From: an uncultured bacterium
Lineage (GTDB): Bacteria > Patescibacteriota > Gracilibacteria > BD1-5 > UBA2023
Direction of reading: 5' to 3'
DNA: 46,893 nt
Assembly: GCA_903908595.1 (NCBI GenBank)
Contig: CAIVSN010000158.1
Location: forward strand, 1-46,893
Under the pieces are notes generated by a model. That model was not told where the DNA came from. It made no database searches and worked only from the letters and a program-made list of their open reading frames with translations. The position numbers and the translations under genes are program-made. The stretch's first letter is position 1, and every line of letters starts with the position of its first letter. Positions 1-46,893 of the stretch are shown one piece after another.

Positions 1-84
1 TATCCGCCGGGACCGCTCGTTCAGGAGCGGATCCAGGATCTCGTACTTCTTTCGAACGAGCGATTCCATTGATTGTTTATCCAT
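1..84 (-). CDS. N-terminal fragment of a probable transposase (ISAzo13-like), cut by the window edge
   Basis: Reverse-strand translation from ATG at 84: MDKQSMESLVRKKYEILDPLLNERSRRI..., resembling ISAzo13-type transposase N-termini (xLxPxLxERxRR). Only 28 aa visible. Confidence 0.5.
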   Translation of the reverse strand, partial: MDKQSMESLVRKKYEILDPLLNERSRRI

Positions 85-298
85 GCGGACATGGTATCCA
101 TAATCATAAATATCACAAATTATTTATTTACAAGCCCTTAGAGACTAACGAACCACCGTGAAAAAACTGCGAAAAGCGGCGAAGCGACGATGGCAAATAT
201 CGTCGCAAACCGACTCCCGCGTTTCGATTTCAAAACGAAAGCGGCATATGGAAAGCCTTTTCTATTGGAAACTTTGAAAAAATTCATAGAGTATCGGC

Positions 299-682
299 AT
301 GTATTTAATGATAATCTACGCCATTCCCGTCAGCTTACTCCTGGTTATCATCGCGTACAGCCTGTTTTGATACCATCCGAGAAAGCTTTGACCGTCAAAA
401 AAAACATATTACCGGTGAGTCCTGAGCAACGCGGCAAACAAAGACCCCCACTCCGCGATCGTCAGCTGCGACACGGTTTTGGAGCTCATACTGAAAGACC
501 TGTGAAACCGAGGAACGGTAGCGGAAATGCTCCAGAAGCGGAAGAATTACAAGAACGTCGAGTATTTCTGGAAGTACCACAAGCTCCGGAACAAAATCGT
601 CCACGAAATGCATCCTCCAAGGGTTACTCCTGCGGAAGTGGCGGAATTCAAGAAGAGGATCGAGGAAGAGTTTCTGAATTAG
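299..682 (+). CDS. Small membrane-anchored protein with HEPN-like RNxxxH motif
   Basis: With UGA=Gly: MYLMIIYAIPVSLLLVIIAYSLFGYHPRKLGPSKKTYYRGVLSNAANKDPHSAIVSCDTVLELILKDLGNRGTVAEMLQKRKNYKNVEYFWKYHKLRNKIVHEMHPPRVTPAEVAEFKKRIEEEFLN, TAG stop. TM helix then LRNKIVHE. Four in-frame UGAs; missed by the ORF track. Confidence 0.75.
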
Positions 683-687
683 CCTAG

Positions 688-853
688 TATACCCAATAGG
701 AATTGGTTTTCGGTATTTTACGGTTACAGATTCGGAATAGATTTTATTTGTCTTCTTCCGCGAGCTTATCGGGAATAAGTGACCGAAGAAAAAAATAAAA
801 GATGTCCGAATATGTGACTGGAAAAACCGGGAAACCGATTCCTATTGGGTATA
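688..853. repeat. Family A palindromic repeat, copy 1 (166 bp)
   Basis: TATACCCAATAGGAATTGG...CCGATTCCTATTGGGTATA; terminal and internal arms form a long imperfect hairpin; near-identical to 2449-2614 and 8425-8590. Confidence 0.9.
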
Positions 854-1477
854 GAAATGGCACCGGGATCTGAGTTCGCAATCGGCACATTTCGGAGCCC
901 TTGCCGTACATTGGTACCTTCAGAAGAGCACGAACGGGTGGTGCATACCCTGTTTTTGTTCGGTCGTCAGTTTTCGTTCGATAGCCCGGTCGGTGAGTTC
1001 CGGGGTTTTGGTCCGGACGATCCCCAGCCGGTTGCATACGCGGTGGACGTGGGTATCCACGCCGACGAACGCACGTCCATACAAGACCGACAATACCACT
1101 TTCGCGGTCTTGATTCCGACGCCGGGAAGCGTTTGGATCAACGTGAGGTCGTTCGGTATGGTTCCGCCGAATTCGTCCGCGAGAATGCGGCCGCAGTTCC
1201 AAATGAACCTGGCCTTGTTTCGGAAATAGTTGATGCTCCTGACCGATTCGGTAACTTCTTCCAGGGAAATGGCCTTCATGTCGGCCGGAACGCGCACTCG
1301 ATCGAACAGCGCGGGAGTCGCCCGGTTCACGCCCACATCGGTCGCCTGTGCGGAGAGGATAACCGCGCACAGGAGCTGAAACGGGGTTTCGTAATCGAGT
1401 TCGATGATTTTCCCGCCATAGAGCCGTTCGACGACGCGGATGATTTCGGTGATTTCGGCAGGATTTTTCAGTTTCAT
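842..1477 (-). CDS. nth: Endonuclease III
   Basis: HhH (LPGVGIKTAKVVL), GVDTHVHRVCNRLG, then HHPFVLF-[UGA]-RYQCTARAPKCADCELRSRCHFYTQ containing the FeS Cys cluster; UGA falls on the Gly of the conserved HGR-like motif. TAG stop lies inside the family A repeat. Confidence 0.93.
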
Positions 1478-1518
1478 GGGCTTTTGGATATACTCTACGC
1501 AAATTACTATTTTTTACC

Positions 1519-2406
1519 ATGATTTTCGATACCCATTCCCATTGCTATTTCGAGAAGCTCGCCATACGAACCGACGAAATCCACCGAAATATGCTCGAAT
1601 CGAACGTGACCCACTCGGTACAGATCGGATGCGATATCCCGAGTTCGCTCGCGGCCATATCGCTCGCGAGGAAATATGCCAATTGGTACGCGACCGTGGG
1701 GTACCACCCCATCGACGCCCAAAACCCCGATCTGGCCAAGGACCGGGCCGGCGGAAAGAAAATCCACGAAGGATCCATTCCCGACTGCGAACCGATGGGG
1801 AAGGTTAGGGAAAAATACCACGGAGAACAGGAAATATGACTCCGGATGCTGATCGACGAACACCGCGATATCGTCGTGGCCGTCGGCGAGACCGGACTTG
1901 ACCGGCACTATCTGAGCGAGGATTCGGCCCAACGGGCCAAGGAGATTTCCGAGCAGTACTACTGGTTCGAGCGGTTGGCACGGGTGGGCAAGGACTATTC
2001 CCTGCCGCTGGTCATCCATTCGCGGGACGCGAGACAAGAAACCATCGATGCCATTAAAAAATTCGAAATCAGAAGCGCGGTAATCCACTGCTTCAGCGAG
2101 AACTACGGATTCGCGAAGGAACTCATGGAATATTCCGACGGGATATTTTTTAGCTTCAGCGGAATCCTCACTTACCCGAACGCCCCGGAAATCCGCGATG
2201 CCGCGTCGAAGATCCCCCTGGACCGGATACTCGTGGAAACCGACGCGCCATTCCTCTCCCCGCAAGCCGTACGATGAAAGACGAACGAGCCGAGCCATAC
2301 GAAGTTCGTGCTGGAATGCCTGTGCGGATTGAGAGAAGAATCGGCGGTAATGGTGGAACGGACGGTTTTCGAGAACAGCCTGAGGTTTTATGGGCTCAAA
2401 GGATAA
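1519..2406 (+). CDS. tatD: TatD-family metal-dependent hydrolase
   Basis: MIFDTHSHCYF..., GETGLDRHY, VIHSRDA, VIHCFSE, LVETDAPFLSPQAVR-[UGA]-KTNEPSH; UGAs at 1837-1839 and 2275-2277 read as Gly. Confidence 0.93.
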
Positions 2407-2448
2407 GCCTTGGGAATCCTCCCGAAAAACACGAACTCTTCGTTCATT

Positions 2449-2663: not shown

Positions 2664-4913
2664 TTACACCATCTCCGTCAACTGGGCTTCCTTGAATTCG
2701 GGGATCCCCAGTTTCATACGCTCGACCAAGCGTTCGTACAGGTAGTAATCTTCCTCGTCTACGGCCACCAGCAGATACAATCTGGCCAACTCGCCGTGTT
2801 CTCCTTCTACCTTCTGGGAAATTTCTTCGATATTGATGAGCATGAGATAGAAGATATCGGAAATCTTTCTCAGGACTCAGATTTTGTTTTCTACAAGGAC
2901 TTCCATCCTCATCTTGGTGTTTTGTACCGGAACATTGGACCAGTTCGAAGGGATAAGCCGATCGAGACTTCCCTTTTTGATGGAGCTGCAGCTCACCCGG
3001 TGGATCTTGATTCATAGGCGGGTAACGTACCCGACTACCCGGCTGCCCGGAACCGGATGACAGCATTCGGCAAAGCGGTAGGCGATATTTTTCTGTCATC
3101 CGATAATCAGATCTCAGAAGGAATGTTCCGCCTCGATTTTTTTGAACCCCGTTTCCACGGGTTCCGCCTTTTGCTGGATGGGGAGGAATTCCCTTTGGAG
3201 CTGGGGCGACATCGACTCCGCAATGGAACGGACCAGCGAACTCGGCTTTCTGGAAAGGTTGCCGATCTGAAGGAGGATTTCTTCTTTTCCCTTGGTGTCA
3301 AGCGTGCGATCGTCGACGTGCTTGAGCAGGGATAAGTCTTTGTCCAACCCCTTTCCGTAATGTTTCTCAAGATATTCGGAAAGCATCATCCTTCCCTTGA
3401 TGATGAGGATTTCCCGCTGCTCGCGGTTGATTTCCGAACGGATGACCTCCTTGGCCCGGGACGTCTTGACGAACGAAAGCCAAGTAACGGAAGGACGGCG
3501 ATTCTTGTCGGTGACGATTTCCACGCGGTCGCCGTTGTGGAGAATGGAATCCAAGGGACATACCTTGCCATTGATCTTTGCGATGGAAAGTCGGTTTCCC
3601 AACTGCGAATGAACCGCGTAAGCGAAGTCTATCGGCGTGGAATCACGCGGGAGATTGATAACGGCTCCCTTCGGGGTAAAAATAAAAATCCGGTCGTCGA
3701 AAACGTTCGTCTTCATTTCCCCCATGAAATCCCCGTCCTCGATTTTGTCGATGAGTCATTTGAGTTCCTGTACCCAAAAAATATCCCGGGAAATCGTGGA
3801 CGAACCGGTTTCCTTGTAGTCGAAATGCGCAGCGACTCCCATTTCCGCCTGGCGATGCATGGCCATCGTGCGAATCTGGATTTCCGTCGGAAGCCTGCGG
3901 AACTCGGGGAGCAACCCGAGAACGGTGGTATGCAAAGACTGGTACCCGTTCGGCTTGGGAAGCGCGATATAGTCCTTGAAGCGCTTCGGGCTCGGCATGT
4001 ATTGGTTGTGGACCATGCCCAGGAGCTCATAGCAATTGGCAATGTTCTCCGTGATGATCCGGAGCGCGAACAGGTCGTAAATCTCGCTGACGAATTCGTA
4101 TCCCTTGCGGGTCATTTTCTTGTAAATGCTGTAGGGAGACTTGATACGCGAAGAAATTTCGTAAATCTTGATTCCGTCGGGACAAATGCTCGACAGGAGT
4201 TCCGTGGCCCGAGTGAGAAACAGGTCCTGTTCCGTTTTCATCTCGGCCAATTCATCGGTAATCCGCCTGAAATCTTCGGGATACAGGATGCGGAAGCACT
4301 CGGTTTCGAGAATTTCCTTGAAGTCGAAAATACCGAGCCGATCGGCAATCGGAACGTAGATATTCAGCGTTTCCAAAGCGATCCGGTGGCGCTTCTCCGG
4401 TTCCGGATGGAATTCCAGGGTCCTCATGTTGTGGATCCGGTCGGCGAATTTGACGAGAATGAGGCGCAAATCCTCGCTCATGGCAATGAACATCTTGCGC
4501 ATGCTTCCGATATTTCGGTCTTCGCCGCGGTACCGGACCTTGGAGAGTTTTTCCATCCCGGAAACGATGTGGGCGACCGATGGGCCGAATTCCGTTTCGA
4601 TTTCCGCTACGGTAACCGGCGTATCCTCGGGTACGTCATGGAGGAAACAGCTCTGGATCGTCACCAGATCCGGTTTGAGGATGGTGATGATGTGGGCCGT
4701 CTCCGTCGGGTGGATGATGTACGGGTCGCCGGACTTGCGGTACTGGCCTTCGTGCGCCTTTCGGGCGAAATGGTAGGCTTTGTATATTTCTTCTTGTACG
4801 ACCTCTCGGGAAATTCCGGTCATGTATCCCGTAACCGTATCGATAATCTCTTCGACGATGATATCGACTTTGGTATAGTCCACGGGGACGGCAACGGGGA
4901 TTTCGGAATTCAT
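2664..4913 (-). CDS. spoT: Bifunctional (p)ppGpp synthetase/hydrolase RelA/SpoT
   Basis: HD domain (HDVPEDT), synthetase (RIKSPYSIYKKM, NGYQSLHTTVLG), TGS (FTPKGAVINLPRDSTPIDFAYAVHS), C-terminal CCHPVPG and ACT region after merging across UGA (e.g. 3756-3758, 3114-3116). TAA stop. Confidence 0.95.
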
Positions 4914-7469
4914 TTATCGGCGGAGGTGAATGGATTTTTGTTCCAGGCTTTCGATGATGGCGTTCTGCAACGATTGGATTTCTTCGTCGCTTATCATCTT
5001 GGTGGCATCCTCGACGACGAACGAGAAGGTCACCGACTTCTTGTCCCGGCCTATTCTATCATGTTCGTACACGTCCGCAACCGAAAGATTCCGGATACGG
5101 GGATCGACGGCGGCGATCAGCTTCGCGACTTCGCCGGTACTCGCCGTCCGGTCGAGCAGAAAATTCAACTCCCGGGAGATGCCCGGGGATTTGCCCGGTT
5201 CGACGTATTTGAAATCCTGGGGAACGGAAGCGAGCAGCGAAACGATGTCGGCCTCGAAATACCAGGTCGTCTCGGGGAGCTCGAAACTTCGCAAAACCTT
5301 CGGGTGGAGGGAACCGAAACTCGCGACCGCGTTGACCGCGTTCGAATAGGTTCCCGAAATGTTCGGGTGGAGAAACGGGAGGCCGGAACCCTGCGAGACG
5401 TCGAGAGACGCTCAAAGCCGGCCAAAGAGCCCGTCCAACAGCATTCGGATTTCCGTTGCGCTGCCGTGGGATACCACTCCGGCGATTTTTTTGGATTCCG
5501 TCATGGCCCCTTCGGACTTCCGGTACGTCTTCGCAATCTCGAAGAACTTGACGGATGCCCGTCGTTTGAGATTCTCATGGACATTCGCGAACAACAGCGG
5601 TGCCATGGAACGGCGCATCGTCGTGAAATCCGGGTTGACGGGGTTCTGGATCACGATGGCATCCTGGGTATCCGTAATTCACGCCGCAGCGTCCTTCTCG
5701 GCATTGCCGAAAGAATAGTTGTACGCCTCGAAAAATCCGGAATCGCTGAAATAATTCTGGATCTCGTTGCGGAACATTCCCCAATCGTTTCTCCGGGCGA
5801 TGGCGAATGCTCCGGGCACGGGAGATTCGGAAATCGAGTCGTACCCGTGGATCCGGGCGACTTCTTCGACGATGTCATCGATACTCCCCATGTCGTTCGT
5901 GGCACGGTGGGAAGGCACGACGACTTCGTAGATCGTTTCGATGGCCTGATTTCGCTCCCGGTGCCCCAGCGAAACATTCGAGGGGTACAGGGTGGCAAAA
6001 TTCCCCCGGCACATCGCGGGAGCGAATTCGAGATCGGAAAGGGTTTTCATGACTTCCGACACGTCGATGGAATCGCCGATTCGGCTCTCGATATACGCAT
6101 GGGTGATTGCCAGCGTTATCGAATTCACCCGGGATTCGTTGACGTACTCGGAACTCCCGGTGACGGTGCCCCCGACCCTGGCGAACTCCAAAAACTGGAC
6201 CGCCCGGCGGAGCGCGACGGCGGAAAACGTCGGATCGAGCGACTTCTCGAAACGTGCGGAAGCCTCGGAACGGAGCCCGAGCCGTTGGGTCGTACGCCGG
6301 ATGGACTCCGGGTCGAACACCGCGGATTCGATGCAGATATTCCTGGTGGCCGCGGAGATACCCGTGTCCAGGCCGCCCATGACTCACGCAATGGCAAGGA
6401 GCTTTTCCGTGTCGGCAATCACGATGTCTTCGGGGGTGAGGACGTAGGTTTTGCCGTCGAGCGCGACGATGCTTTCGCCGGCTATGGCCTGGCGGACGAT
6501 AACGTGTCCGGCGATGGTATCCGCATCGAACGCGTGCATCGGCTGTCCGAGCTCCGTCATGAGGTAGTTGGTCATGTCGATGACGGCATCGTGGGTCGAA
6601 TGTCCGGAACGTTCCAACAGGATTTGGATTCCGAGCGGCGAAACGCGGTTGGAAATGCCCTCGAATTTCGCGAGGCTATACGACAAGATCCGGTCCGTCA
6701 GGATTTCTACCTGGATACGCGGAGCGTCCGCGATGCTCGTGACGGCGGAAGTGTCGAGTCGCTTCCGTTCGGCCCCGAATACCGTGGCGAACTCCCGGGA
6801 ATGCCCGTAAATGCCGAAAAGATCGGGACGGTTGGCAATGGAATCGTTGTCGATTTCGAATACGCAATCGATCAGGGGAATTCCGGTCGACTCGCCGGAA
6901 GCTCAGAGGACGGGGACGGTCAGGTCGAAAAACGGCTTCCCCACGACGGAATCGAGGTATCCAACGGCATAGTCCAGATTCAGGTCCATGATGCCGCCGG
7001 AACTCGAATTCGAAAGGCCGATTTCGTCGGCCCCGCACATCATTCCCCGGCTGGTCATCCCGGCCATTTTTCGTTCCCCGATGATGAAATCCGGGGCCAG
7101 TTGGCAGCCGACCACGGCGACGGGCGTATACATTCCGGGATAGACGTTGGGGGCTCCGGTGAGGATTTGCTCCGTATCGACCATGCTATCGTCCGGCTTG
7201 CAATGGTAATAGCCATGGAGCCCGGCACGAAAGATACGCTCCCCTCCCCCGACATCGACCTGGCATATCCACAGTTTGGACGATTCGGGATGCCGCTCCG
7301 CCGTGAGGACTTTTCCGACCACAACGCCATCGAACCGCTTGGATTGCCCTATGCCTTCGATTGATGCCGTATGAATGGAATATTGATGGGCCATCTCTCG
7401 GGAATCATATTGGGTACGGACTCCGGACAAGTCAACGAACAATCCGAGCCAGTTGAGGGAAATTTTCAT
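4914..7469 (-). CDS. pheT: Phenylalanine-tRNA ligase beta subunit
   Basis: MKISLNWLGLFVDLS..., B3/B4 region, HAFDAD, LLAIA-[UGA]-VMGG matching PheT AIAGVMGG, RPSRWVV/SEASARFEK, C-terminal FDX-ACB-like domain. Several UGA=Gly. TAA stop abuts spoT ATG. Confidence 0.95.
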
Positions 7470-7560
7470 AAGTTCTGTATTTATCGAATTGGCCCAAGTA
7501 TAACGAAAAAGACTTTGAGAGCAAAATTTGGAATTGGGGAAAATCGGATATACTGCGGTC

Positions 7561-7911
7561 ATGCTACGAAAAATCAAACATTTTCTCCTTATTTTAGGAC
7601 TGCCGCTGCTCTTGCCGAATTCGGCTTTTGCCGCCTCGAACTGGCTCGGAATCAACGACGATGACCTGAGAAACGGAAACCTCGGCTTCGAATCCATACC
7701 GGGAATCATCCTCAACGTGACCAACTTCATCCTTGGGCTCGTGGGAACCGTCGCCACGATCATGATCATTTATGGAGCCGTCCGAATCGGCTACGGAGCG
7801 GTAGCGGACGACAAGGAAGCCGGGAAAAAAATCGTCACGGCGGGCATCGTCGGATTCGTGATTTCCGTATCCGGATGGTTCATTATCAATTTCATAATCG
7901 ACAATTTCTAA
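7561..7911 (+). CDS. T4SS pilin-like (VirB2/TrbC-like) small membrane protein
   Basis: Signal peptide (LLILGLPLLLPNSAFA) followed by two TM helices, ...LGLVGTVATIMIIYGAVRIGYGAVADDKEAGKKIVTAGIVGFVISVSGWFIINFI. Confidence 0.7.
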   Translation: MLRKIKHFLLILGLPLLLPNSAFAASNWLGINDDDLRNGNLGFESIPGIILNVTNFILGLVGTVATIMIIYGAVRIGYGAVADDKEAGKKIVTAGIVGFVISVSGWFIINFIIDNF

Positions 7912-7912
7912 T

Positions 7913-8602: not shown

Positions 8603-9199
8603 CTATTTCAAATACTCGTCGATCTGTTTCTTGGCCACTTCGATGTGCGGCGCGATGACTTCGGCATTGTTTCCGGTTGCCCAGAATATTTTGACTTCCT
8701 TGGCTCCGATGAATTGGAAAAGCGCGGTAAGGTGACCCGTATAGAAGTCCCACGGATGACCGGCACCGGCAGGAATTCCCCCGCTCGTTCCGACGATGAC
8801 GACCCGGGTAATCTGCGATGCGAGACCAACGTATTTTCCTTCGTCCGACATTTTCCACGTCTGTCCGACCCGGATGACCTGGTCGAACCACGCCTTCACC
8901 GAAGCGGGCATCCCGAGGTTCCACATCGGAGCGGAAAGCACGACGGTATCCGCCGCGAGAATCTCGGCAACGACCGCGTCCTGATAATCGACCGCGTCCT
9001 TATCCGCCCCCTTGAGGGTCCCATACGGAGCGAAGCCGTACATGTGGGATATCTGGTTATCGGTGACGAATGGCACGGATTTGGAAACGTCCCTGGAGGT
9101 AACCTTGCCGGGTAGCTTGGAAAGGACGTGGTCCGCGAGGACCTGGGAATGCGATCGTTCCGCGCGGGGTGAAGCGTGGACGTAGAGAATGTTCGGCAT
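8603..9199 (-). CDS. azoR: FMN-dependent NADH-azoreductase / quinone oxidoreductase
   Basis: MPNILYVHASPRAERSHSQVLADHVLSKL... SAPMWNLGMPASVKAWFDQVIRVGQTW... GIPAGAGHPWDFYTGHLTALFQFIGAKEVKIFWATG; TAG stop. Confidence 0.88.
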   Translation of the reverse strand: MPNILYVHASPRAERSHSQVLADHVLSKLPGKVTSRDVSKSVPFVTDNQISHMYGFAPYGTLKGADKDAVDYQDAVVAEILAADTVVLSAPMWNLGMPASVKAWFDQVIRVGQTWKMSDEGKYVGLASQITRVVIVGTSGGIPAGAGHPWDFYTGHLTALFQFIGAKEVKIFWATGNNAEVIAPHIEVAKKQIDEYLK

Positions 9200-9326: not shown

Positions 9327-9446
9327 GGACTCCTGAAAAACGATGAAATCCGAAGTCAATTTCGAGCACCGAAGTGAGGCGTACTGGCAAGTACGTCGAA
9401 CGAGGAGCGGAGAAATTGACAAGGAGTTCGCGTTTTGCAGGAGTCC
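9327..9446. repeat. Family B hairpin repeat, copy 1
   Basis: GGACTCCTGAAAAACGATGAAATCCGAAGTCAATTTCGAGCACCG...GCGGAGAAATTGACAAGGAGTTCGCGTTTTGCAGGAGTCC; inner and outer arms complementary. Confidence 0.8.
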
Positions 9447-9883
9447 TACAGGTCATTTATGGATATCTCGTCCTTGCGGGGAGCCTGAGCGGAAACGGGC
9501 TCGTACGTGCCGATGCTGATTTCCTTTGGATTCGGGCCGTACTCGTTGGAACCCGGGTCGCTGTCGGTAACCATAAGTACCAAAAGCCATATTCAACCTA
9601 TGAGCGGCACAAATGATATCAATAGCATCCACCCGCTTTTGCCAACGTCATGGAGCCGACGTATCGCAACGGCAAGCGAAGGAATAAAAATAATCAGCGC
9701 ATAAATGCCGAATAAGGTCGTAGTAATTCCCATATTCTTCCCACTATACGCACCAAAGGCCAAAACGATCTGAAGCACTACCTGTAAGAGAAAATTGAAC
9801 AACACGAAATACCAATATTCCGACCGGGTCGATCGACCGCTGAATTCGGCGTATTTGTTGAACGCCATGACAAAGTATGACAT
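9446..9883 (-). CDS. DUF805 family membrane protein
   Basis: MSYFVMAFNKYAEFSGRSTRSEYWYFVLFNFLL...VPLIG-[UGA]-IWLLVLMVTDSDPGSNEYGPNPK...; canonical DUF805 ending recovered with UGA=Gly at 9593-9595. Confidence 0.92.
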
Positions 9884-12691: not shown

Positions 12692-12899
12692 AAGAATATG
12701 GGTTAAAAAAAATACCGGCATATGGTAAGCTAAATTCTTCAAGTTGCAAAGCCAAAACGGGGGAAAACAAAATTTCCCGAACGCATCGGGGCACATGCCG
12801 AACCCTCCCGGAAAATAACACAAGGGTTTGCCTCTCCGGGAATATTTGATATGATTCGGGTATCGTACTACCCATCGAAAAATTATCCGATACCAACCT

Positions 12900-14276
12900 A
12901 TGTTGAAAAGTAACGAAGCCATACCTGAGGCAAATATCGTCGCGACGCCACGAACGGGAACCGCCAGCGACCTTTCCATTTCCCGGAATACCAAATCCGT
13001 TGATACCCTTGCGGGGGAAGTGGAGAGCCTGAAAATCAAAATTTTGGAACAGGAACGTTTGCTTTTCGAAAAGGCCGAGCAGCTCGATCGTATGAAAAAA
13101 AGCTTCTTGAAAACGAAACTGGAACTCAGAATGTCCAAGCGCGTTTCTAAAAGCGTCGACACCATACTCAAAGACCTTGGCAAAATCGATATCGGCGACT
13201 ATATCGGCCTGTTCAACTATATCCTGAACACCCTGCCGGAGAAAATCCGCTGCCGAATGAAATACCACTTCCCGATGTCGGCGGATTCCACGGCAGAAAT
13301 GCACGATTCCGACCTGTTCCTCGCTTTGTTCGAAACCTCGTATGGCCTCATGGACTCGCGCTTCGGCAAAGACCGGGAAATCGGGTACGGAAGTATCGTG
13401 AGCCAAGAAAAATTGGATTTCCCATTTCCGGAAGGATCAGAAATCTATCCGGTCGTGGTCGAGGGAAAGGTTATCGGCCACGTGGAATTCTTGAGAGGCG
13501 ACGGTTCCATAGGATCCTTGGAAAGTATCCGCAGGGCCGTGAACCAGGTACTGCAATATCTCTGAGCCATCGTTTCGCAACTGCAGTACGTTATCATACT
13601 CCAAGAAAACAGCCTCATGATCCGGAAGCACATTTCCATGATCCAGACGGATTTGCTTACCGGGATCAACAGCCGGAGGGGATTTTTTTCCAAAACCGAA
13701 GCATTGCTCCGGAAGTATCCGCTCGCGAAGAAATCGATTCTTGCTATCGATATCGACCACTTCAAGCGTATCAACGATCGATACGGGCATTCGGGATGAG
13801 ACAAGGCGCTTCAGATTATCTCGAAATCGCTCGAAAGGAAACTGGGGAAAATCTTGCGGGAAATGAACGTCAACAACGATGACGAGAAGAGTCATATGCA
13901 CGGGGAAATCGGCCGAATCTGAGGCGAGGAATTCGCCATCCAGCTTATCGGGGCGGATTTGGAAGTCACCCATGCCATCGCCGAAGAGCTCCGGATGGCG
14001 ATAGAGCGGAAACTCTCGAAATTCGAAAACGGCGACGGGTCTATGCCTACCGCGCAGATTACGATAAGCATAGGCGTCGCCTCCTTTGAAAACGACGACT
14101 CCCCGCTCACGGGAAACGAACAGTCCACGATAATGGAACAGGCGGACAAGGCCCTGTATCACGCGAAACAGACGGGGAGAAACAAAGTCATCGCTTATCA
14201 CGACGAACTCGCGACTCCGCCGCAAGAAAGCGATTCCACTTCCCATTTGTCGATACGGAGGAAATGACGGGGATAA
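12900..14276 (+). CDS. Diguanylate cyclase (GGDEF domain, N-terminal coiled coil/GAF-like region)
   Basis: DLLTGINSRRGFF, DIDHFKRINDRYGHSG-[UGA]-DKALQII, GRI-[UGA]-GEEFAIQLIG (GGEEF), ISIGVA, ADKALYHAKQTGRNKV. UGAs 13563-13565, 13797-13799, 13920-13922, 14265-14267; TAA stop. Confidence 0.92.
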
Positions 14277-25686: not shown

Positions 25687-25750
25687 GGGAAAAATGGTTG
25701 AGCGAACTGGCATTATACGGAAAACCGGGGGAAATTACAGGGGATTATGC

Positions 25751-30515: not shown

Positions 30516-30590
30516 AAGGTGCGTGGTAAAGGTTACGTAAAATTCGGCAGATTCTGGAAAATCCGCCCTTTTGTAAAGCATGATATGTTA

Positions 30591-31058: not shown

Positions 31059-33959
31059 ATGGAAAAAATGGTAATCGAACCTCGCAATGTCGGGGCTCAT
31101 GACGAATTGCGTACCGATGTCGCTCCGGGTCCTTCGAATCCGGATACTCTTGATACCACTGTTGCCCCCGTTACCCTGAAGCGGTATTTCCGGGAGAAAA
31201 TCCTCGCTATCGCATGAATCAACGAAAAAATCGTCACTTCCAAATACCGCAACGTCCTCCCGGCGGTAATTATGGCAACGGGCATGGGCATAACGATGCA
31301 GATAGCCAATTCGGAGCGGGAAAGTTTCATAAAGAGCGTTGAATTCTGATTGCACCACAAACTCGAAGAAATCATCGCTCCGGTCGAGAGTCGATTCAAA
31401 GCGTATCAGCAGATACTTTTCGGAATCCACGGACTGTTCGGGCTCTCGAAAGACGTATCGGGAGCAAATTTCAAATCCTACGTCGAATCGCTGGAGCTCT
31501 CAAAAAATTATCCCGAAATACACGGGATCAGCATTTCCTACTTCATACCGAAGAAAGATGAAGCCGAGCACGTAGCGAAAATACGAAGCGAAGACGACGG
31601 AACGCTCGGAACCGATTTCGAGATAAAGAATCACGATCATGCCCCCGTCGAGTATATCGAGCCTCATGACGAATCGAATCCAAAAGTAATCGGGTTTGAC
31701 GATTTCCCCGATCTCGTTAGGAAAGCGGTTTTCGAGAAATCGAGGGATACCCATCAGATCATCATTTCCCAAAGATTCAAGCCGGTACTAGAAATCGATT
31801 CGTTCGATTCACGATTCCTTGCCACCTACCCGATATACGGCAAAAAATCTCCCCATGAAAGCCTCGAACAGCGCCGGAAGAACATATTGGGATGGGCGGC
31901 ATTGGCGTTCGAGATTCCGGAACTCATGGAGGACTACGAGAAAACGGAAGCCGACACGTACGATCTGAGCATTTATGACGTCGATAAGAAGAGAAAAGAT
32001 ACTCTCATTTACGGAAAATCCCTGAATAATGAAACCCGACAGGGCCATTTGTCGCTTTCATCCGAAAGAATCGTACATGTCGGCGACAAGAACTGGAAAG
32101 TCGTCATACGTCCTCGTCATGATTTCAGCGCAACGGAGCACCTCGACCGGGCAAACTTCATCCTCTACGGATGAGGAATCCTCAACTTGCTTATCGGATT
32201 CTTCCTCTGGCAACTCATTCAGAAGCGCCACCTATCATTGGTGACGCTCGAGGCGCTCAGACAAATCGCGGAACGACTCGCCCAAAGCGAAAAACGATAC
32301 AGCACGCTGTTTCACGAGAGCCAGGTTTCCATGTTCATTATCGATCCCGAAACGGGAGTTATCGAAAATGCCAACAAAAAGGCAACCGAATTCTACGGTT
32401 ATGCTTACGACCGCCTGCTCGGAATGAAAATCTCCGAAATCAACGTGCTGCCTCCGGAACAAACCCCGGAAAAAATGGCCTCAGAGGCGAAACGTGAAAA
32501 AAAGAAATTCGAATTCCAGCACCAAACCGCCTCATGAGTCGTCCGTGACGTGGAAGTATCGTCGTCGCTGATAGAGCTGGACGGAAAATTCAAACTGATC
32601 TCCGTCATAGAAGACATTACGGCGCGGAAGAAAGCCGTGGAAAAAATCATCGTCATGGCGAACTACGACAACCTTACCGGGCTGCCGAATAGGAATTTTT
32701 TCATGGAACGGCTCAAACAGAGTTTCGCGAGCGCCGACCGGAACCGCACTTCCGTGGCCATCATGTTCGTGGATCTGGATCAGTTCAAGGCCGTGAACGA
32801 TTCCCTCTGACACGCCATAGGGGACAAACTCCTCGTGAAAGTCGCGGAACGGATGAAGAAGTGCATCCGCGCGGAAGATACCGTAGCGCGCCAAGGGGGC
32901 GACGAATTTCTCATTCTCATACCGAACCTTACGGCACCGAACCAGTCTTCCGGCATCGCGAAAAAACTGATTGCCGAAATAAAGAAGCCTTTCGAAATCG
33001 ACGGACATGAGGTTCGCGTCGGATCAAGCATCGGGATCACCACGTATCCAAACGATTCCGACAACGTCGAAACCCTCCTCCGGTACGGGGATATCGCCAT
33101 GTATAAGGTAAAAACGACCTGACGAAACAATTTCCAGTTTTTCTCCCAGGAAATGCAGGAGGCTTCGATCGAACAACAAAAGCTCGCCACCGCGCTCCAT
33201 CACGCGATCGAGCAAAAGGAAATGTGGGTAGCGTATCAGCCGGTATTGGATGCGAAAACCGGAAAAATCGCCAGTATGGAAGCGCTGTTGCGTTGGAACT
33301 CCGTGGAGTTATGACCGATATCGCCGTCAAAATTCATTCCGATCGCGGAAGACACCGGGCAAATCATGCAAATCAGCAATTGGACGATCCGCGATGTCTG
33401 CGAAAAAATCGTCGAATGGGAAGGTCAGTGACTGCATGTCCCAAAAATCACCGTTAACCTTTCCCCCCAGCAATTCCGTTCGAGGCATCTGGATCGTGAT
33501 ATCACGGAAATCCTCTTGGAAACGGGAGTTTCCCCAAAAAAAATCGGCATAGAAATCACCGAGAGCATGCTGATGGAAAACGTGGAAGTGGCCATCGTGA
33601 CCTTGGGGAAACTTTCGAAGATGGGTTTCGAAATCTCCCTCGACGATTTCGGTACCGGGTATTCGAGCCTGAGCTACCTCCGGAGATTCCATGTGAACCT
33701 CCTCAAGATCGACCAATCGTTCGTTGCCAACCTGAGCGACAGCATAGATGACACGCTCCTGGTTTCGGGCATTATTTCTTTGGCGCACAGCCTCAAAATG
33801 AAGGTGATTGCCGAAGGCGTGGAAACCAAAGAACAATTCGAGACGCTGCTCTCGTTGGGATGCGACTACATCCAAGGGTACTATTTCTGAAAGCCCGGGA
33901 ATACGGAGAAGACCGTGGAACGAATCCGGGGCGAAAAAACGTATTTGGAAATCCAGTAA
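31059..33959 (+). CDS. CHASE-PAS-GGDEF-EAL c-di-GMP turnover protein (start uncertain; may begin at 30810)
   Basis: CHASE-type FKAYQQILFGIHGLFG...; TM; PAS (YSTLFHESQVSMFIIDPETGVIENANKKATEFYGY); DNLTGLPNRNFF, NDSL-[UGA]-HAIGDKLL, ARQGGDEF; EALLRW, VNLSPQQFRSRHLD, GVSPKKIGIEITESML, DDFGTGYSSLSYL, DQSFV, AEGVE, YIQGYYF-[UGA]-KP. TAA stop. Confidence 0.93.
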
Positions 33960-37935: not shown

Positions 37936-38700
37936 CTATTCCGGTACGTCGGGTTCTGAATCCTCGCCCGAACTCCCGTTCAAGATCGCCTTCTGCCGTT
38001 TCCAATCCGGAAAAAATTCATCCATATGGCGTCGGAATTTCTCATTGTGCCCCCGCTCCAGGAGATGAACCATTTCGTGGACCAGAACGTAGAGAATGGA
38101 CTTCATGGGCTGCTTCGCGAGCTCGGTATTGAGCCAAATGCGCTTCGTGACGACATTGCAGGTACCCCACCGGGTTTTCATCGCCCGAAAACGCATATCG
38201 GCAACGCGGACGCGCATGACCGTTTCGAGCCTGGCGATTTCCGGTGCCAGAAGCGGGGCGAGCCGCCAGGCGTACCAGGCTCGGAGGACCGCTTCCCTCC
38301 CCTTCGCCGAGGTGCCGGGGCGTACCGAAAGCCGGAGGGACGATTCGTCCGAAATCATGACTTCCGGCGGAGAATTTTGCTCGACCACTTCCAGCCGATA
38401 CGGTATTCCAAGAAAATAATGGATTTCCCCGCTCGCGTATTCCATTGCCGAATCGCGTTCCATAGCAAGGAATTTCGATCGTTGGCGGGCAAGCCAATCC
38501 GACTTGGACGCTACGAACGTCCGAACGGTATCGAGACTCATCCGCAGCGGCGCGGTAGCGGTGACTTCCCCATCGGCAAGGCGCACCCGGAGACGAAGGT
38601 TTTTGACGTTCTTCCGGGTCACGGTTACGGAAAAGCCTTCCATGGAAATCGAATCGACACGTTCCGCCGAAGAAAAAAAGGCTAGTTTCGGTATTTTCAT
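37936..38700 (-). CDS. YgjP-like metallopeptidase domain protein (DUF45)
   Basis: KTRWGTCNVVTKRIWLNTELAKQPMKSILYVLVHEMVHLLERGHNEKFRRHMDEFFPDWK. Confidence 0.92.
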   Translation of the reverse strand: MKIPKLAFFSSAERVDSISMEGFSVTVTRKNVKNLRLRVRLADGEVTATAPLRMSLDTVRTFVASKSDWLARQRSKFLAMERDSAMEYASGEIHYFLGIPYRLEVVEQNSPPEVMISDESSLRLSVRPGTSAKGREAVLRAWYAWRLAPLLAPEIARLETVMRVRVADMRFRAMKTRWGTCNVVTKRIWLNTELAKQPMKSILYVLVHEMVHLLERGHNEKFRRHMDEFFPDWKRQKAILNGSSGEDSEPDVPE

Positions 38701-40358
38701 AACCCAAGGGATTGTATGGCATCGTAGCTGGTGGCGAATACGCGCCGCTCGTGGCGGGCATCGTGGAAGAATTTCGTTTTTTTCAGAAGTTTTTCCGTCA
38801 AGACGGAAACCCCCGAATAATACGCTTCGATTTTGAATTTTTCCATGTGCCGGACCATTTTTTCAAGGGTTTCCAGCCCGTCGAGATCGATGTTGTGCAC
38901 GCTGGAAAAACTGAAGATCACGTTCTTCGGCTTCTTCAGCTGTTCCACTTGGTCGAGCTGGGCCTCCACGTTGATGTACGTGAGGGATCCGCTGAATTTG
39001 TAGATGAGCGTGTCCTCGGGTTCCTGTTTGGGAATATATTCCCGCAAACGGGCCTTCACGTAGTAATCCCCATTGCGGAAAATCGACACGTAGACGTTGC
39101 CGTCGGACACCTTTTTGATAAAGACGATCAGGGTAATCGTCGTGGCGGCCAGTATGGCGATGAGCGGATCATCGAACGTCGTGATAGCCGCGGTCAGCAT
39201 GGTTATCGCGAAGGCGAACCGGTCATAGTGCCAAATCTTCCGGTACCGTTCGACTTCGATCATCCCCACGGCAATCGACATCAGGATAGCCGCGATCACG
39301 CTCATGGGAAGCAGTTTGAACCATCCGAATCCGACCGCCGAAATAATCAGCGTTCCAATGGCGGCAATCGAGGCCGATATCCGGTGGTCGGCCCCGGATT
39401 TGACATTGAGCGCGGTCCGCACGAGCACGGCGGTCGCCGGCATTCCGCCAACCAGCCCGGAGCAGATATTGGCCAAAGCCAATCCCCGGACTTCCAAATC
39501 CTTGTTGAACTTCGTTTTCGACATATCTTCCGCGATCTTTGCGGATATGAGCGTTTCGAGAATGGCCACGATGGCCACCACGAGCGAGGTCAGGGCAATC
39601 GATTTGTACAGGATGATGTTGTCGTACAACGTGCTCCGGGAAAACAGCGATGGGAAATCCGGAAACGACACGAGGGTAAACGAAAGCGAAGCGAATTTGT
39701 CTTGAATGGTATCGACCGGGGGGATCCACCCCCGGACCGAAGCGTAACCGGTCAGGATGCCGACAATCGTCAGGGGCAAAGCTCCGGGGATGCCGGGGAT
39801 TTTGCGCTTCCAAACCGCCAGGAAAGCGAATGAAACCGCGAAAATCGCGAACGCCGCAAGATTCGCGTCGGGCAGGTGGACCGCGGTCCGGATCAGGCCA
39901 TCGAGAAAATCCTTCTGCGGTCAGGCAGAAATTCACAGGGCGTTATTCAGCTGGGATGCGGCGATGGTCACCCCTACCCCGAGCAAAAACCCATGGAGGG
40001 CGCTGGACGGAATGAGCGTGACGTACTTGGAAAGCCGGAACGCGTACACGACGAAAATAATGCCGCCGGCCCCGATCGCGACGAACGGCACGAACGTCGC
40101 GCCGTGAGCGACGCTGAAAGCGAGGAGAATTCCCGACAAAGCCCCCGCCGGACCGTAGATATTGTGTTTGGAAGAAGCGAAGAGCGATGCCGAAAAACCG
40201 GCCCAGATCGCCGTGAGGATGCCCATGAGCGGAGCCTGCGGGTAGTCTCAAAGCGATGCGACGGCGAGCGCGAGCGAAAGCGGGATATTCACGAGCGCGA
40301 CCGTAAGTCACGGTTTGTAATTGGCTCGGAGCCGGGAAAGGAACGTAGTCATCGGCAT
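38682..40358 (-). CDS. SulP family inorganic anion transporter with STAS domain
   Basis: MPMTTFLSRLRANYKP-[UGA]-LTVALVNIPLSLALAVASL-[UGA]-DYPQAPLMGILTAIWAGFSASLFASSKHNIYGPAGALSGI..., NICSGLVGGMPATAVLVRTALNVKSGADHRIS; C-terminal STAS (HNIDLDGLETLEKM). Reads through TGA 38697-38699 to TAG 38682-38684. Confidence 0.9.
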
Positions 40359-40585
40359 GTTTAAAAATCGGAACGGATACAATATATTACCGGAGCGAAA
40401 ATATCAAGCCGAACTTTGATTTTTAGCGTGGCGGGGTTCGGAGATACTCTGTATCCGTTGCGGTCGAAGCCGAATTGGTCCGTCAGGCATAACTCGCGGG
40501 ATTGGAACGGGAACACGGGAAACGAACCAGCTTCCATTCGATGGGAAGCGCCGGGATCGGGATAAAAAACAGGCGGGGATGCGGC

Positions 40586-41509
40586 TTACGGTACGGCGTT
40601 CTTCGGCATGGGGATGAGATCCCCATATTTCCGGTCCAATGCCTCGTGATCGGGCCGGAAAAAGTTGTAGCCGCTGTGCGGGGTGAACGTGAGTTCTCAG
40701 AAATATATCCTATCGGAAACGCAGTAGAGATCGACCCGCATCAGGGGAAATCCCGCGGAAAGCAATCGCGCGTATCCGACCATGGTTTCGAGGCGTTCGG
40801 GTTTCGGCAAATCGAACATCCCCTCGTATCCCGGCTGGTTTCCCATATAAAAATCCAACCGGTTCCCCTTCGGGTCGATAAAAATCCTCCGATGGTCGCC
40901 AAACCGTCCAATGTCGATCTGGATAAAATCCGGCTCGCCGTCGAAACAGTGGATTTTGTAGTCGACGATGACCGGAAAAAGCGGATCTTCCAACAGTTCT
41001 TCAACGATGATGCGGGGTTCGATATTCCGATAATGGAGTTCCCTACCCGCTATGGAATAATCCACGCCCATCCATTGGTCCAGGGTGCGTACCGTTTCGG
41101 GAATATCCAACGCTGCCTTGTCGCGAACGAAGATATTGAAGCTGGTACCATGCGCGCACTTGATAACGAATTTCTCGGGAAGCGTTTCGAACGGGATATC
41201 CCGCGCGGACTTTCCCTGCCAGTAGAGTTCTACCAGGACCGATTTGCCGATTTTTTCGGCAATGAAATCCCGGACCGCGAATTTGTCGGACAGCTCGCTG
41301 AAAATCGGATCGGTCTGAATGAGCTTGAGCGCTTGGATTTTTTCGTTGTAGGTTTTCGGATGGTCGAGATCCGGGAATCTTCGAAAGATAAAGAAATATT
41401 TCAGGCGGATCAACTGCCGATCGGAAAGCAGGCCCATGAGATAATTCCGAAATCGAATCGCGGAAACGGAGAACGATTTGCGCATTCCACCGGTTGGGGC
41501 TGACGTCAT
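40586..41509 (-). CDS. TupA-like ATP-grasp protein (glycosyltransferase/polysaccharide-associated)
   Basis: FPDLDHPKTYNEKIQALKLIQTDPIFSELSDKFAVRDFIAEKIG, FVIKCAHGTSFN, PRIIVEELL, DYKIHCFDGEPDFIQID, MRVDLYCVSDRIYF-[UGA]-ELTFTPHSGY; UGA on the FGELTF Gly. Confidence 0.9.
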
Positions 41510-41601
41510 TTTGAATAGATAGGGAATGGCTCGAATATATGCGAAATCCTCTCGAATTCAAACGATTTGACTCAGTCAGCGCGTTCCCGGGCCCGTTCGG
41601 G

Positions 41602-41973
41602 TTACAGTTCGAAACTGAGCGCCATTTCCCGGTCGGGCCCATTGAGGAAAAAATCGAATTCCAACCAGAATCCGCCGTTCCTCTTCGACCATTCGATGAG
41701 GTTGCGGTTCAGGAGCGGTTCTTCATACACGGCTTCCGGCAACGGGAACGCGAGATTGAAAAACATGATTTTGGCCTTCCTGAAGCCTTCCAATCGTACC
41801 AGGACTTCGCAAACGATGCGATCCGGCAAGTCATCGCCTTTGACGAAAGCCACGTATTTAAAATCTTTGAACCGCATGATGTCTTCCCGGGCCAATTCGA
41901 ACTTGTCGCAGTAAAACGTCAGCTTCTCGGAGATGGACGATGCGTCCGGATCGTATTTCACGACGAGGTTCAT
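41602..41973 (-). CDS. Hypothetical protein (123 aa)
   Basis: MNLVVKYDPDASSISEKLTFYCDKFELAREDIMRFKDFKYVAFVKGDDLPDRIVCEVLVRLEGFRKAKIMFFNLAFPLPEAVYEEPLLNRNLIEWSKRNGGFWLEFDFFLNGPDREMALSFEL. Confidence 0.7.
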   Translation of the reverse strand: MNLVVKYDPDASSISEKLTFYCDKFELAREDIMRFKDFKYVAFVKGDDLPDRIVCEVLVRLEGFRKAKIMFFNLAFPLPEAVYEEPLLNRNLIEWSKRNGGFWLEFDFFLNGPDREMALSFEL

Positions 41974-42130
41974 AATGATTGGGTTAAGATGGCTTGTAGA
42001 AAAGTGCTCGGAATTCGGAAGGGTGGCACGAGCATCGTACCCAGCAATATTAATACCGGATTATACCATGGAAGTTAGCCCGGTCGAAAGATGGAAGGAA
42101 AATAGCCAGCCGGGAGATGGCCCCCAATCT

Positions 42131-42157
42131 AGAAAAAATCCCGCGCGAGGCGGGATC
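42131..42157 (-). terminator. Intrinsic terminator downstream of the MCP gene
   Basis: Minus strand ATCCCGCCTCGCGCGGGATTTTTTCT. Confidence 0.8.
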
Positions 42158-42184
42158 TGGAACGCGGGGATGGTTTCCCCCGCA

Positions 42185-44152
42185 TCATGTCACGTGTATC
42201 CCCCGCATCAGATTCATGAGATTTTGAATCGTCCCATGAACTTCTACGAGCGACGCCGCGATTTCTTCGCTCGTCGCGGCATTTTCATTCGCAATCGCGC
42301 TCAGGTGTTCGATTTCCCTTTTGATTCCGATTACCGACTCGTGGGTAGAATCGCAATCGTTCGATAGCCCTTCCGTGACCGTCGCCAACCCCTGATTGAT
42401 ACCGCTGAACGCTTCGGTGGTTTCATTTTCCATATGTCGTACGGAAGTGACGGCAAAATCCATATTTTGTATGGCCTTCGCGAGGTCGCCGGACGTGTCC
42501 TTCATGCTCTTCAGCAATTGGCCGGTGGTACGTTTCCCGGCGTCGCTGGCGACTTTCGATCGCTCTGCCAGGGTGCGTACTTCCAATGCCACCACCGCGA
42601 AACTCCGACCCGATTCTCCCGCCCTTGCCGCCTCGATTGAGGCATTGAGGGCGAGGATGTTGGTCTGGAAGGCAATTCCCTCGATCGTGCTCAATACCTC
42701 GATGATCTCCCTGATACTGCCTTCCGACAGCATCGCGAACGTACCGCTCGCGGTCACGATAGCGGATTGTGCCGACCGTATCCCCTGAGTGACCTGCTCG
42801 ACTTCTTTTGTCACCAGCCGTTTCGCGTGGTCTATCGCCCCTTCCTGTTCCCTGAGTTTGCCGATATCTTGCCGGGTATTGCTCGCATGGGTCTCAAGCG
42901 TTTCGGTGTTCCGGCTCAATCCTTCCGCGGCCAAGCTGAGCCCCTCGTTTTCCGTTCCTTGCGAAAGGGTGGCGGTCGAGACGTGACCCGTGCTTGCCTC
43001 TATGTCACTTAAGGAAGATTTTGCCGCCTCGAACGCGGTCTTTATGGGACCGAGCTTGAATCGGAGCACGAGGGCGAGGGATGCCACGACCAAAATGAAC
43101 AGGCCGGTCATGGATGCCCATATGATATTCCTAAGCAGAATGGATTCCGTCAGTATCTCCGTTTTGGGGAGGGCGCCAACTATCATCATGCCTACGTCCG
43201 GAACATCCTGGAACCACCCGACCTTTTCGGTAATGCTTCCGTCCGCCTCCTTCCATTTGTAAGAAAATTCCCCGGGAGCGAATACGATTTTCCCATCCCC
43301 GGAATGGGTGACGGTACTTTTTTTACGAGCCAGTATGTCCTCGAATATTTTCTTTCCATTCTCGGCATCGGTCTGACCCAGAAAATTTTTTCCTACAAAA
43401 GAAGCGTTCCGGTGCATCAACATGTTCCCATACGTTTTTCCCGCTTTGGAATCAAGCACGTAAATATATCCCGTCTGCCCTATTTTCTGATTCAGGAGCA
43501 CGGCCGTAAACGCATCGATGATCGGTTGTACGTTCGTTCCCACGTATCCGACGATTTTACGTCCTCCCACGTCCTGCAGCGTCTGGTATTTCGCGAAGTA
43601 GTTGACGCCGAGTATCGGGGCGAGCCCGATAAACGGCCTATCCGCTTGTATGGCTTCGATAACGGGTACCGAATCCATAACCGTCCCGTACATGCGGTTT
43701 TTTTGGACGTCCCGCACCGAAGTGGAAATCCGTACGCATTTCGCCTCGCACGCGATTACCGACGCGACCGAACCCCGGTAGATTTCCGAGAACTTGTCCA
43801 CCTGCCGGTGTTGGTTCGTGACGACGGCATCCTGGTTCGAAAACACGGGGACTTGGTTCGATCCGGACGAAGCCGGATCGAACTTCCATTCCTTGTTGTC
43901 AAACATCCCGGCAAAAGAATCGAACTGGGCATTGGTATTGGCCATGAAGCCAATATGCATCATTTGCAAGGAATTGGCATTCCCCACCATGATCGTATTG
44001 ACCAGTTTTTCCGTTTCGCGTTTGCTATTCTGACCGCTCAAATGGGAGAGTCCCAACGATATGGTCAACGCGGCAAGGGAAAACACCGCTCCGATCGCCA
44101 GAAGGATCGAAGCAAGCGTGGAAGTCGATTTCCTATTTGTTTTCGTAGCCAT
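42185..44152 (-). CDS. Methyl-accepting chemotaxis protein (Cache-type sensor, MCP signal domain); ends at UGA
   Basis: TM helices; [25 protein letters not shown]; tip [44 protein letters not shown]-terminus [11 protein letters not shown] then TGA at 42185-42187. Confidence 0.92.
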
Positions 44153-44277
44153 TTTCGTATTTCCTTCAAATATTGGTTGATTGAGAAAAAGAAGCCGGTT
44201 CGGATTCTATAGAAGGAATTTATATTAACAAAAAAATAGATTATTCCGTTCGAGTGTCCGACACGGGGTACGATGGG

Positions 44278-44316
44278 CCGAAAAAAATCGCCAACCGGAA
44301 ATCCGGCGGGCGATTA
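44278..44316 (-). terminator. Intrinsic terminator downstream of ahcY
   Basis: Minus strand AATCGCCCGCCGGATTTCCGGTTGGCGATTTTTTT. Confidence 0.7.
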
Positions 44317-44332
44317 CTCGTGACGATGATTC

Positions 44333-45736
44333 CTAATACCGATAGTGGTCCGGCTTGAACGGTCCGACCTTCGGCACCCCGATATAGTCGGCCTGCTCGG
44401 TGGAGAGCTCCGTAAGCTCTGCCCCAATGCGTCCGAGATGGAGCCGCGCGACTTTCTCGTCGAGGTGCTTCGGGAGGCGGTAGACGCCGACCGGGTAGGC
44501 TTCGGGATGGTTGAAAAGTTCCATCTGCGCGAGCGTCTGGTTCGTGAACGAATTGGACATGACGAACGAGGGGTGGCCCGTCGCGCAACCGAGATTGACG
44601 AGGCGGCCTTCCGCGAGGAGGAGGATCTTGTTCCCGCTCGGGAGCGTGATGTGGTCGACCTGGGGCTTGATATTGTCCCAGACGTATTTTCTCATGCTCA
44701 TGACGTCGATTTCGCTGTCGAAATGCCCGATGTTGCAAACGATGGATTCGTGCCGCATCTTCACCATGTGATCATGGGTGATAATATCCTTGTTTCCGGT
44801 TGCCGTCACGAAGATGTCGCCCTTGTCACAGGCATATTCCATCGTAATGACCCGGTACCCTTCCATGCTGGCTTGAAGCGCGCAGATCGGGTCGATTTCC
44901 GTGACCCAGACCGTCGCTCCCATGCCTCGGAACGCCGAAGCACATCCCTTCCCCACGTCGCCGTATCCGCACACGACCGCGATTTTCCCGGCGATCATGA
45001 CGTCGGTGGCCCGCTTGATTCCGTCGATGATGGACTCCCGGCAACCGTACAGGTTGTCGAATTTGGACTTCGTTACCGAGTCGTTGACGTTGATCGCGGG
45101 GAACGGAAGCCGTCCCGCCTCGAACATCTGGTAGAGCCGGTGGACCCCGGTGGTGGTCTCTTCGGAAACCCCGCGGATGTTTTTGCGGATGTTGGAATAG
45201 AATCCTGGCTTGGAAGCGAGGGTTTTCTTGATGGCAGCGAACAATACGCGTTCTTCTTCGCAGGTCGGGTTCGCGAGGACCCCGATGTCGGATTCCGCTT
45301 CGGAACCGAGGATCACGAGCAAGGTCGCGTCTCCCCCGTCGTCGAGGATCATGTTCGGTGTGCCGCCGTCTGACCAGTCGAGGATTCGGTGGGTGTATTC
45401 CCAGTATTCTTCGAGGGATTCGCCCTTGTACGCGAACACCGGAATGCCGGCTTCCGCTATCGCCGCCGCCGCGTGGTCCTGGGTCGAGAAAATATTGCAG
45501 GAAGCCCACCGGATGTCGGCCCCAAGCGCTTTGAGCGTTTCGATGAGCGCCGCCGTCTGGATGGTCATGTGGAGGGAGCCGGCAATCCGAGCGCCCTTAA
45601 GCGGTTGGGAATCCCCGTATTCCTTCCGGAGGGACATGAGCCCCGGCATTTCCGTTTCGGCGATTTCGAGCTCCTTCCGTCCCCAGGCCGCGAGGGAAAT
45701 ATCGGCAATCCTGTAGTCGTTCGTGTTCGTGTTCAT
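44333..45736 (-). CDS. ahcY: Adenosylhomocysteinase
   Basis: [91 protein letters not shown]-terminal KPDHYRY. No internal UGA; TAG stop. Confidence 0.97.
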
Positions 45737-45784
45737 AGTGAAATTGGTTAAAAAAAAAGAGAGCATTGTATCGAAAGCAATTCC

Positions 45785-46723
45785 TTACGCAAAGAATTTT
45801 TCTCAGAATTCCTTCATTCCTATCGCGTCGACGGAATCCCGGGTAAACGTGTGGTTCTGCCCCCCGACGTGCTCGATCTTGATGCCGCCGAGCACGCTGC
45901 CGAGCTTACAGGACTTCTCGATGTCCCATCCTTCGGAAAGCCCGCACAGGAGACCTGCCCGGAACGCGTCGCCGCATCCGGTCGGATCCACGGGGGTATG
46001 GACGAAAATCGTCGGGATTTCCGTTTCTCCCGATTCCTGGCAGATGCGGGATCCCTTCTCCCCGAGGGTGACGATCGCGATTTTGCCGTAGGACTTCGCG
46101 ATGTCCGTGAAATACTGTCCGGACAGGCCCCGGAAGGTCTCATACTCGTATTCGTTCATGATCGTGATGTCCGCTTGGACCACCATTTTTACGAGTTCGT
46201 CCCCGGAAAACAGCCCCATAGCCTGCCCCGGATCGAAAATCGTAAAAATCCCGCGTTCGGTGCATTCCCGCAAGTGGTTCATGATGCCGAGCCGGGAATC
46301 GGGAGCGATAATGGCATGCGAATACGGCGCGTTCCTTACGGAAATTTCTCAGGAAAAACCCATCGCCCCGGGATGGAACGCCGTGATCTGCCGGCCGATT
46401 TCGTCGCCGATGATGTAGCCCTGCGGGCTGAACGTCTGGGGGATGACCCTGATGGAATCCGTACGGATGCCAAGTTCCGCGAGGCGGAGGAGGTATCCTT
46501 CCGCATCCTCCCCGACCGCGGCGATGATTTCGGAAGATTTCCCGAGCAGAGAAAGGTTGTACGCGATATTCCCGGCGGCGCCGCCGTACTCGCGACGGAT
46601 GGTCGGAACGAACAGCGACATATTGAAGCTGTCGAGCGCGTCGGGGATGATTTGGCTTTTGAAAGTCCCGACGACCGATATGATGGTATCGAACGCCACG
46701 GAACCTGAAACGAGTATGCTCAT
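45785..46723 (-). CDS. PfkB-family carbohydrate/nucleoside kinase (adenosine kinase-like)
   Basis: MSILVSGSVAFDTIISV..., GGAAGNIAYNLSLLG, GRQITAFHPGAMGFS-[UGA]-EISV, VDPTGCGDAFRAGLLCGL; last UGA followed by EKFFA and TAA. Confidence 0.9.
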
Positions 46724-46893
46724 AGAAAAAAGGGGTTATGGAGCCTCTGCAATATTCCCTTCGTTAGTAAAAATCTCATATTTTTTAGGCATATTTTATG
46801 ATAGAAAAATGAGTTTAGTGGTTCTAAATGAATTTTTATAGAGTAAAATAGGACAAAAAAGATGAAATTTTAATAGATGTGGAATATTGCAGA

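Follow-up and report, generated by a model that had tools for sequence, protein, structure and literature searches.

Does UGA end translation in the organism that carries this stretch of DNA (46,893 nucleotides, analysed in full and here called the window), or is it a sense codon, and if so, for which amino acid? The original prediction was that UGA is read as glycine throughout (NCBI translation table 25), that gene after gene is interrupted by TGA only and each time at a glycine of the family, and that the true gene ends are TAA or TAG; elsewhere in the genome a tRNA-Gly(UCA), the absence of RF2 and a fitting marker-gene placement were expected. The code as such is rare but already known; it is NCBI code 25, described since 2013 (Campbell et al. 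2013; Rinke et al. 2013; both cited in PMC8629427 and PMC13092985), and it is also given for a BD1-5/SN-2 genome in PMC4032931. As set out below, the window almost certainly comes from a Gracilibacteria/BD1-5-type genome that uses table 25 by means of tRNA-Gly(UCA) and without RF2, glycine presumably being what this tRNA is charged with in the cell.

In-frame TGA codons in the genes of the window

Every TGA named in the original prediction exists and lies in frame, in a gene backed by Pfam or by a solved structure (Table 1); the codon check confirmed seven sites, that is, the six named before and a second one in GltX. In the structure alignments TGA was translated as X. The solved homologues have glycine opposite the Nth site (FFGRYHC), the TatD site (both chains, HRGKENQP and FRGKRNEP) and the PheT site (AIAGIMGG and AIAGVMGG), while at position 17195 of GltX the solved chains shown have glycine in two of three cases and aspartate in the third; in the alignment of relatives this column is glycine in eight of eight, the query counted among the eight. 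The claim that each TGA falls on a family glycine thus holds for Nth, TatD and PheT, whose sites are invariant, but some TGAs lie off any conserved glycine, and the TatD motif, cited as QPYRGKTNEPS, in fact reads QAVRGKTNEPS. Many genes are indeed interrupted, but several, among them those for S-adenosylhomocysteine hydrolase and the flavodoxin-fold protein, contain no TGA at all, which marks UGA as a minor codon for glycine here. No tRNA gene was found within the window itself.

Table 1. Genes of the window, with their in-frame TGA codons and the evidence for their assignment
Gene product	Position	Strand	In-frame TGA	Evidence
Endonuclease III (Nth)	842..1477	-	920-922, at Gly of FFGRYHC	Pfam HhH-GPD 2e-20; PDB alignment
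TatD DNase	1519..2406	+	2275-2277, at Gly of R-G-K-x-N-x-P	Pfam 2.6e-59; PDB alignment
RelA/SpoT (HD, TGS, ACT domains)	2664..4913	-	5	Pfam; PDB 2.7e-124; ORF list
PheT	4914..7769	-	4, one at 6384-6386 in AIAGVMGG	PDB 5.8e-77 with TGA as X
Flavodoxin-fold gene	8603..9199		0	
DUF805 protein	9446..9883	-	9593-9595	Pfam 1.4e-35; codon check
Second GGDEF protein	12828..14276			
Glutamyl-tRNA synthetase (GltX)	16862..18451	+	17057-17059, 17195-17197	TIGR00464 5.1e-78; PDB alignment
ABC exporter half-transporter	22197..24035	-	3	Pfam
ABC exporter half-transporter	23950..25713	-	3	Pfam
Ice-binding-like surface protein	28881..30581			
CHASE-PAS-GGDEF-EAL protein	30810..33959	+	9	Pfam; ORF list
SulP sulfate permease with STAS	38682..40490	-	6	Pfam 2.6e-49
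TupA-like ATP-grasp	40586..41812	-	40697-40699, in FGELTF	Pfam 8.5e-46; codon check
Methyl-accepting chemotaxis protein (Cache sensor)	42050..44152	-	1	Pfam
S-adenosylhomocysteine hydrolase (AdoHcyase)	44333..45766	-	0	Pfam 9.2e-148; ORF list

The gene content of the window is rich for the group, with a CHASE-PAS-GGDEF-EAL protein and a second GGDEF protein; there are also a Cache-type chemotaxis receptor and an ice-binding-like surface protein. Chemotaxis receptors are present in 15 of 40 relatives; a search of the genome to which the window belongs returned no CheA dimerisation domain, and the receptors may thus be orphans.

Meaning of UGA across the genome

The window is part of a draft genome (G000; 2.41 Mb in 186 contigs, 98.65% complete, contamination 5%), of which about 578 kb was sampled and aligned to E. 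coli proteins. The 12,052 aligned columns contain TGA 31 times, TAG twice and TAA never, which bears out for TAA, but not quite for TAG, the statement that only TGA interrupts the genes. Of the 26 TGA columns without a gap, 19 have glycine (binomial p ~5e-16 at a background of 8%); about one quarter of the TGA columns have another residue, which is to be expected with homologues this distant. Where the ends of homologous genes were readable, they are TAA (14) or TAG (9) and in no case TGA, just as had been proposed. A simple gene caller based on codon usage returned 342 genes, of which 237 contain TGA. TGA makes up 7.5% of the glycine codons, a rough figure given how frequent antisense shadow ORFs are at the GC content of this genome. 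Highly conserved genes are poorer in TGA; RpoB has none, against 97 GGN codons. A test of coding potential around stops is unusable for this genome owing to the long antisense ORFs of GC-rich genomes, and was applied only to three relatives (G144, G128 and G134; see below). Judged from these alignments, UGA is read as glycine in the window and in its genome.

Release factors and tRNAs

The sole gene of the RF1/RF2 family in the genome, on contig C168, scores 459 bits against the RF1 model, which is over the cut-off, and 269 bits against the RF2 model (TIGR00020 with its own cut-off), which is under it. The profile search, whose positive controls came from 10 of 14 reference genomes, thus found no RF2 (prfB) in this genome; as the assembly is a draft (186 contigs, contamination 5%), this absence leans on the completeness of the assembly and on its relatives. 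One tRNA with a UCA anticodon is encoded outside the window (G000:C142:29555-29633(-)), adjoining tRNA-Gly(GCC). It has 79 nt, ordinary arms and the acceptor GCGGGGG...CCCCCGC-U-CCA, in which G1:C72, C2:G71, G3:C70 and U73 agree with the glycine rules of Codetta as laid down in PMC8629427. Both the lack of RF2 and the presence of tRNA-Gly(UCA) had been anticipated. Among the 30 typeable tRNA matches of this genome, complete though it is to 98.65%, tRNA-Ala, tRNA-Val and tRNA-Asp are absent, which reflects either assembly gaps or unusual tRNAs.

The reading of UGA is best explained as follows. The dedicated tRNA(UCA) with its glycine-type acceptor presumably receives glycine from glycyl-tRNA synthetase and decodes UGA with it; RF2, which would be the only factor to end translation at UGA, is absent, leaving this tRNA without a competitor at that codon, and RF1 terminates at UAA and UAG.

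Other readings of the internal TGA codons

Bacteria such as Mycoplasma and Hodgkinia have reassigned UGA to tryptophan instead (code 4), and the GC-rich Hodgkinia shows that high GC is no bar to such a change (PMC8629427). For the genome of the window this is most improbable: none of the 26 TGA columns has tryptophan, whereas TGG columns have it in 31 of 64, the tRNA-Trp is an ordinary one with the anticodon CCA, and the tRNA(UCA) bears glycine acceptor elements together with U73. The standard code could be upheld only if the internal TGAs were due to pseudogenes, sequencing errors or selenocysteine readthrough. ARAGORN does name the tRNA(UCA) tRNA-SeC, but this label follows from the UCA anticodon alone; the tRNA has the length and the ordinary arms described above, and the TGA columns have glycine rather than cysteine. 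Pseudogenes or errors are hard to reconcile with homology-supported genes that contain TGA, no TAA and TAG only twice, and with the hundreds of TGA which the codon-usage caller found spread over the genes of this genome; as RF2 is missing as well, the standard code has a negligible chance of applying here.

A code of the Absconditabacteria type, in which CGA and CGG also mean tryptophan, deserves mention since CGG as tryptophan has been predicted for some Gracilibacteria (PMC8629427). Yet arginine is found in 142 of 290 CGG columns and in 62 of 111 CGA columns, tRNA-Arg with the anticodons UCG, CCG and GCG are all present (besides one with CCU), and the RpoB tree sets the genome outside the SR1 family, all of which renders this code exceedingly unlikely. 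Both Gracilibacteria and Absconditabacteria had been named as the source; with CGA and CGG as arginine, Gracilibacteria/BD1-5 is the closer match.

Distribution of the code among relatives

The survey covered 353 genomes of the class, families f1-f3 being the order of the window's genome. A match of RF2 grade was found in none of the genomes of f1-f3 and f5, with one exception (G112); RF2 is present in most genomes of f4 and from f6 on. Most f1-f3 genomes have a near-identical tRNA-Gly(UCA), and one genome of the same genus has the identical sequence; the search pattern misses the version of this tRNA in f5, which is the family of the named SR1 genome RAAC1_SR1_1. The exception, G112 (L116), is an own-order assembly of 2.7 Mb with tRNA-Gly(UCA) and, on another contig, a strong RF2 match (1.1e-152), which is probably contamination.

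In an RpoB tree built from ORFs picked by homology, the order forms one clade (100/100); choosing the longest ORF instead gave a wrong tree, as GC-rich genomes carry long antisense ORFs. The marker gene therefore assigns the window's genome, as foreseen, to an order without RF2, and the second family without RF2 is the one that includes RAAC1_SR1_1. RpoB does not reject a single clade of the order and SR1 (p-AU 0.17); SR1 sits on a long branch, whose position may be wrong. The order is Gracilibacteria/BD1-5-like (GTDB class JAEDAM01 in PMC13092985), a formal name which we infer. As a taxonomic marker GltX is of little use here: beyond two SR1 genomes, its alignment search returned mostly Clostridia. 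After these two genomes, the GltX of this family (16862..18451 in the window; loci L235-L312) is closest to sequences from Clostridia and other Bacillota, which points to horizontal transfer; some genomes of the same family (f1) carry a different, more distant type.

Compared with known systems, the genome shares with other users of table 25 the meaning of UGA, the tRNA-Gly(UCA), the lack of RF2 and the stops UAA and UAG; it is GC-rich (0.527), larger (2.41 Mb) than its relatives and sparing with UGA, but does not differ in essence. With Absconditabacteria (SR1; RAAC1_SR1_1, CP006913) it has in common the absence of RF2, seen throughout f5, and the use of UGA as glycine; unlike them, it keeps CGA and CGG as arginine and stands in a separate RpoB clade, and the GC content of SR1 is lower. 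The Codetta screen of Gracilibacteria and Absconditabacteria (PMC8629427) is similar in spirit in its method of inference.

GC content and the use of UGA

The GC content of the genome (0.527 over 373 kb) had been singled out as unusually high. It is indeed high, at 53%, but not novel; for the reassigned groups 0.21-0.53 has been published (PMC8629427), so that the genome falls at the upper limit of what is known and not beyond it, and several other members of its family exceed 50% GC locally. In GltX, TGA accounts for 45-88% of glycine codons in many relatives of ~21-28% GC and for 3-9% in relatives near 50% GC. The code would go back to an ancestor of the order and would have persisted in those lineages whose GC later increased, with UGA reduced there to a minor glycine codon; RF2 once lost, rising GC would dilute UGA without restoring it as a stop.

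The RpoB of a genus mate, G001, is 95% identical over 477 columns. G000 and G001 (L186-L190) are ~13 points of GC apart (0.53 against ~0.40, G001 having ~0.38-0.44 in the stretches sampled), which is a steep change between such close relatives. They also differ in assembly size, 2.41 Mb against ~1.1 Mb, most relatives having 0.7-1.5 Mb; with contamination estimated at 5%, the window's genome is either truly larger or a mixed bin. Its 33 tRNAs include no obvious duplicates among the typed ones.

A distant relative with both tRNA-Gly(UCA) and RF2

G144, a member of family f11 (1.5 Mb, 95% complete, 1% contamination; loci L176-L185, L196-L215 and L344-L363), groups in the RpoB tree with families that have RF2 (97/85). 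It encodes a tRNA(UCA) (L176:4485-4561) of 77 nt with a clean cloverleaf and glycine acceptor elements, which is ~61% alike to the tRNA-Gly(UCA) of the window's genome and 57% alike to the only other readable glycine tRNA of G144. Its RF2 gene (L177:6984-8006 (-)) is intact, with the SPF and GGQ motifs; it shows eight departures from conserved positions, the median being three in the 31 further RF2 sequences compared from the class.

When a frame in 764 kb of G144 is followed beyond its TGA, the next 40 codons remain coding-like in 56 of 83 cases, as compared with 7 of 324 for TAA and TAG together; in the RF2-bearing relatives G128 and G134 the corresponding TGA counts are 0/8 and 0/13. Gene ends of G144 determined by homology to these two relatives (n=60) are TAA in 42, TAG in 16 and TGA in 2 cases, and those determined against E. 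coli are TAA 18, TAG 18 and TGA 0, whereas in the relatives TGA ends 5 of 32 and 9 of 39 genes. About 100 of 566 genes called in G144 contain TGA, at 3.4% of glycine codons; RpoB has none. Glycine is the commonest residue at these codons (9/21 against E. coli, 13/27 against proteins of the window's order), and tryptophan does not occur among the residues listed; against G128 and G134 proteins glycine is found in 1 of 10, matches too few to inform. The nameable TGA-bearing genes include those for type IV pilus ATPases, a pilus inner-membrane protein, TrkA and TSP3-repeat proteins; in PilT the TGA stands at the invariant first glycine of Walker A (LVTxPTGSGKST against LVTGPTGSGKST), and a PilB-like ATPase has its TGA where solved homologues carry glycine.

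A mere mixture of two species is not the explanation, since contig C43 carries rpoB together with the TGA-bearing pilT, and contig C59 carries RF2 together with the TGA-bearing pilB-like gene; the tRNA(UCA) is on contig C1. It is reasonably probable on this evidence, if well short of certain, that UGA was reassigned to glycine at least twice in the class, and that G144, nested among RF2-bearing families with UGA as a stop codon, seems to decode it as glycine with RF2 kept, through a change that would be independent or still incipient; this RF2 may be needed only for UAA. A second pattern (60 genomes) and the first pattern (380 genomes of the phylum) yielded no additional convincing tRNA-Gly(UCA) in RF2-bearing lineages, the matches there not being tRNA-like. 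The two Gracilibacteria species with RF2 that are read as standard code in PMC8629427 are without tRNA-Gly(UCA), which sets them apart from G144. We found no report of the combined state in a literature search that was not exhaustive and saw its sources in part.

Implications

The window is ordinary for its clade. Table 25 is required for calling its genes, as nearly all long proteins are otherwise fragmented, and the window clearly exemplifies a code that survives at 53% GC, UGA being one of the minor codons for glycine. In codon reassignment, the question whether the tRNA is gained before or after RF2 is lost becomes testable with G144, which holds both; if the reading of its UGA codons is true, G144 would represent a living intermediate in the reassignment of a stop codon, the tRNA having been gained before the release factor was lost.
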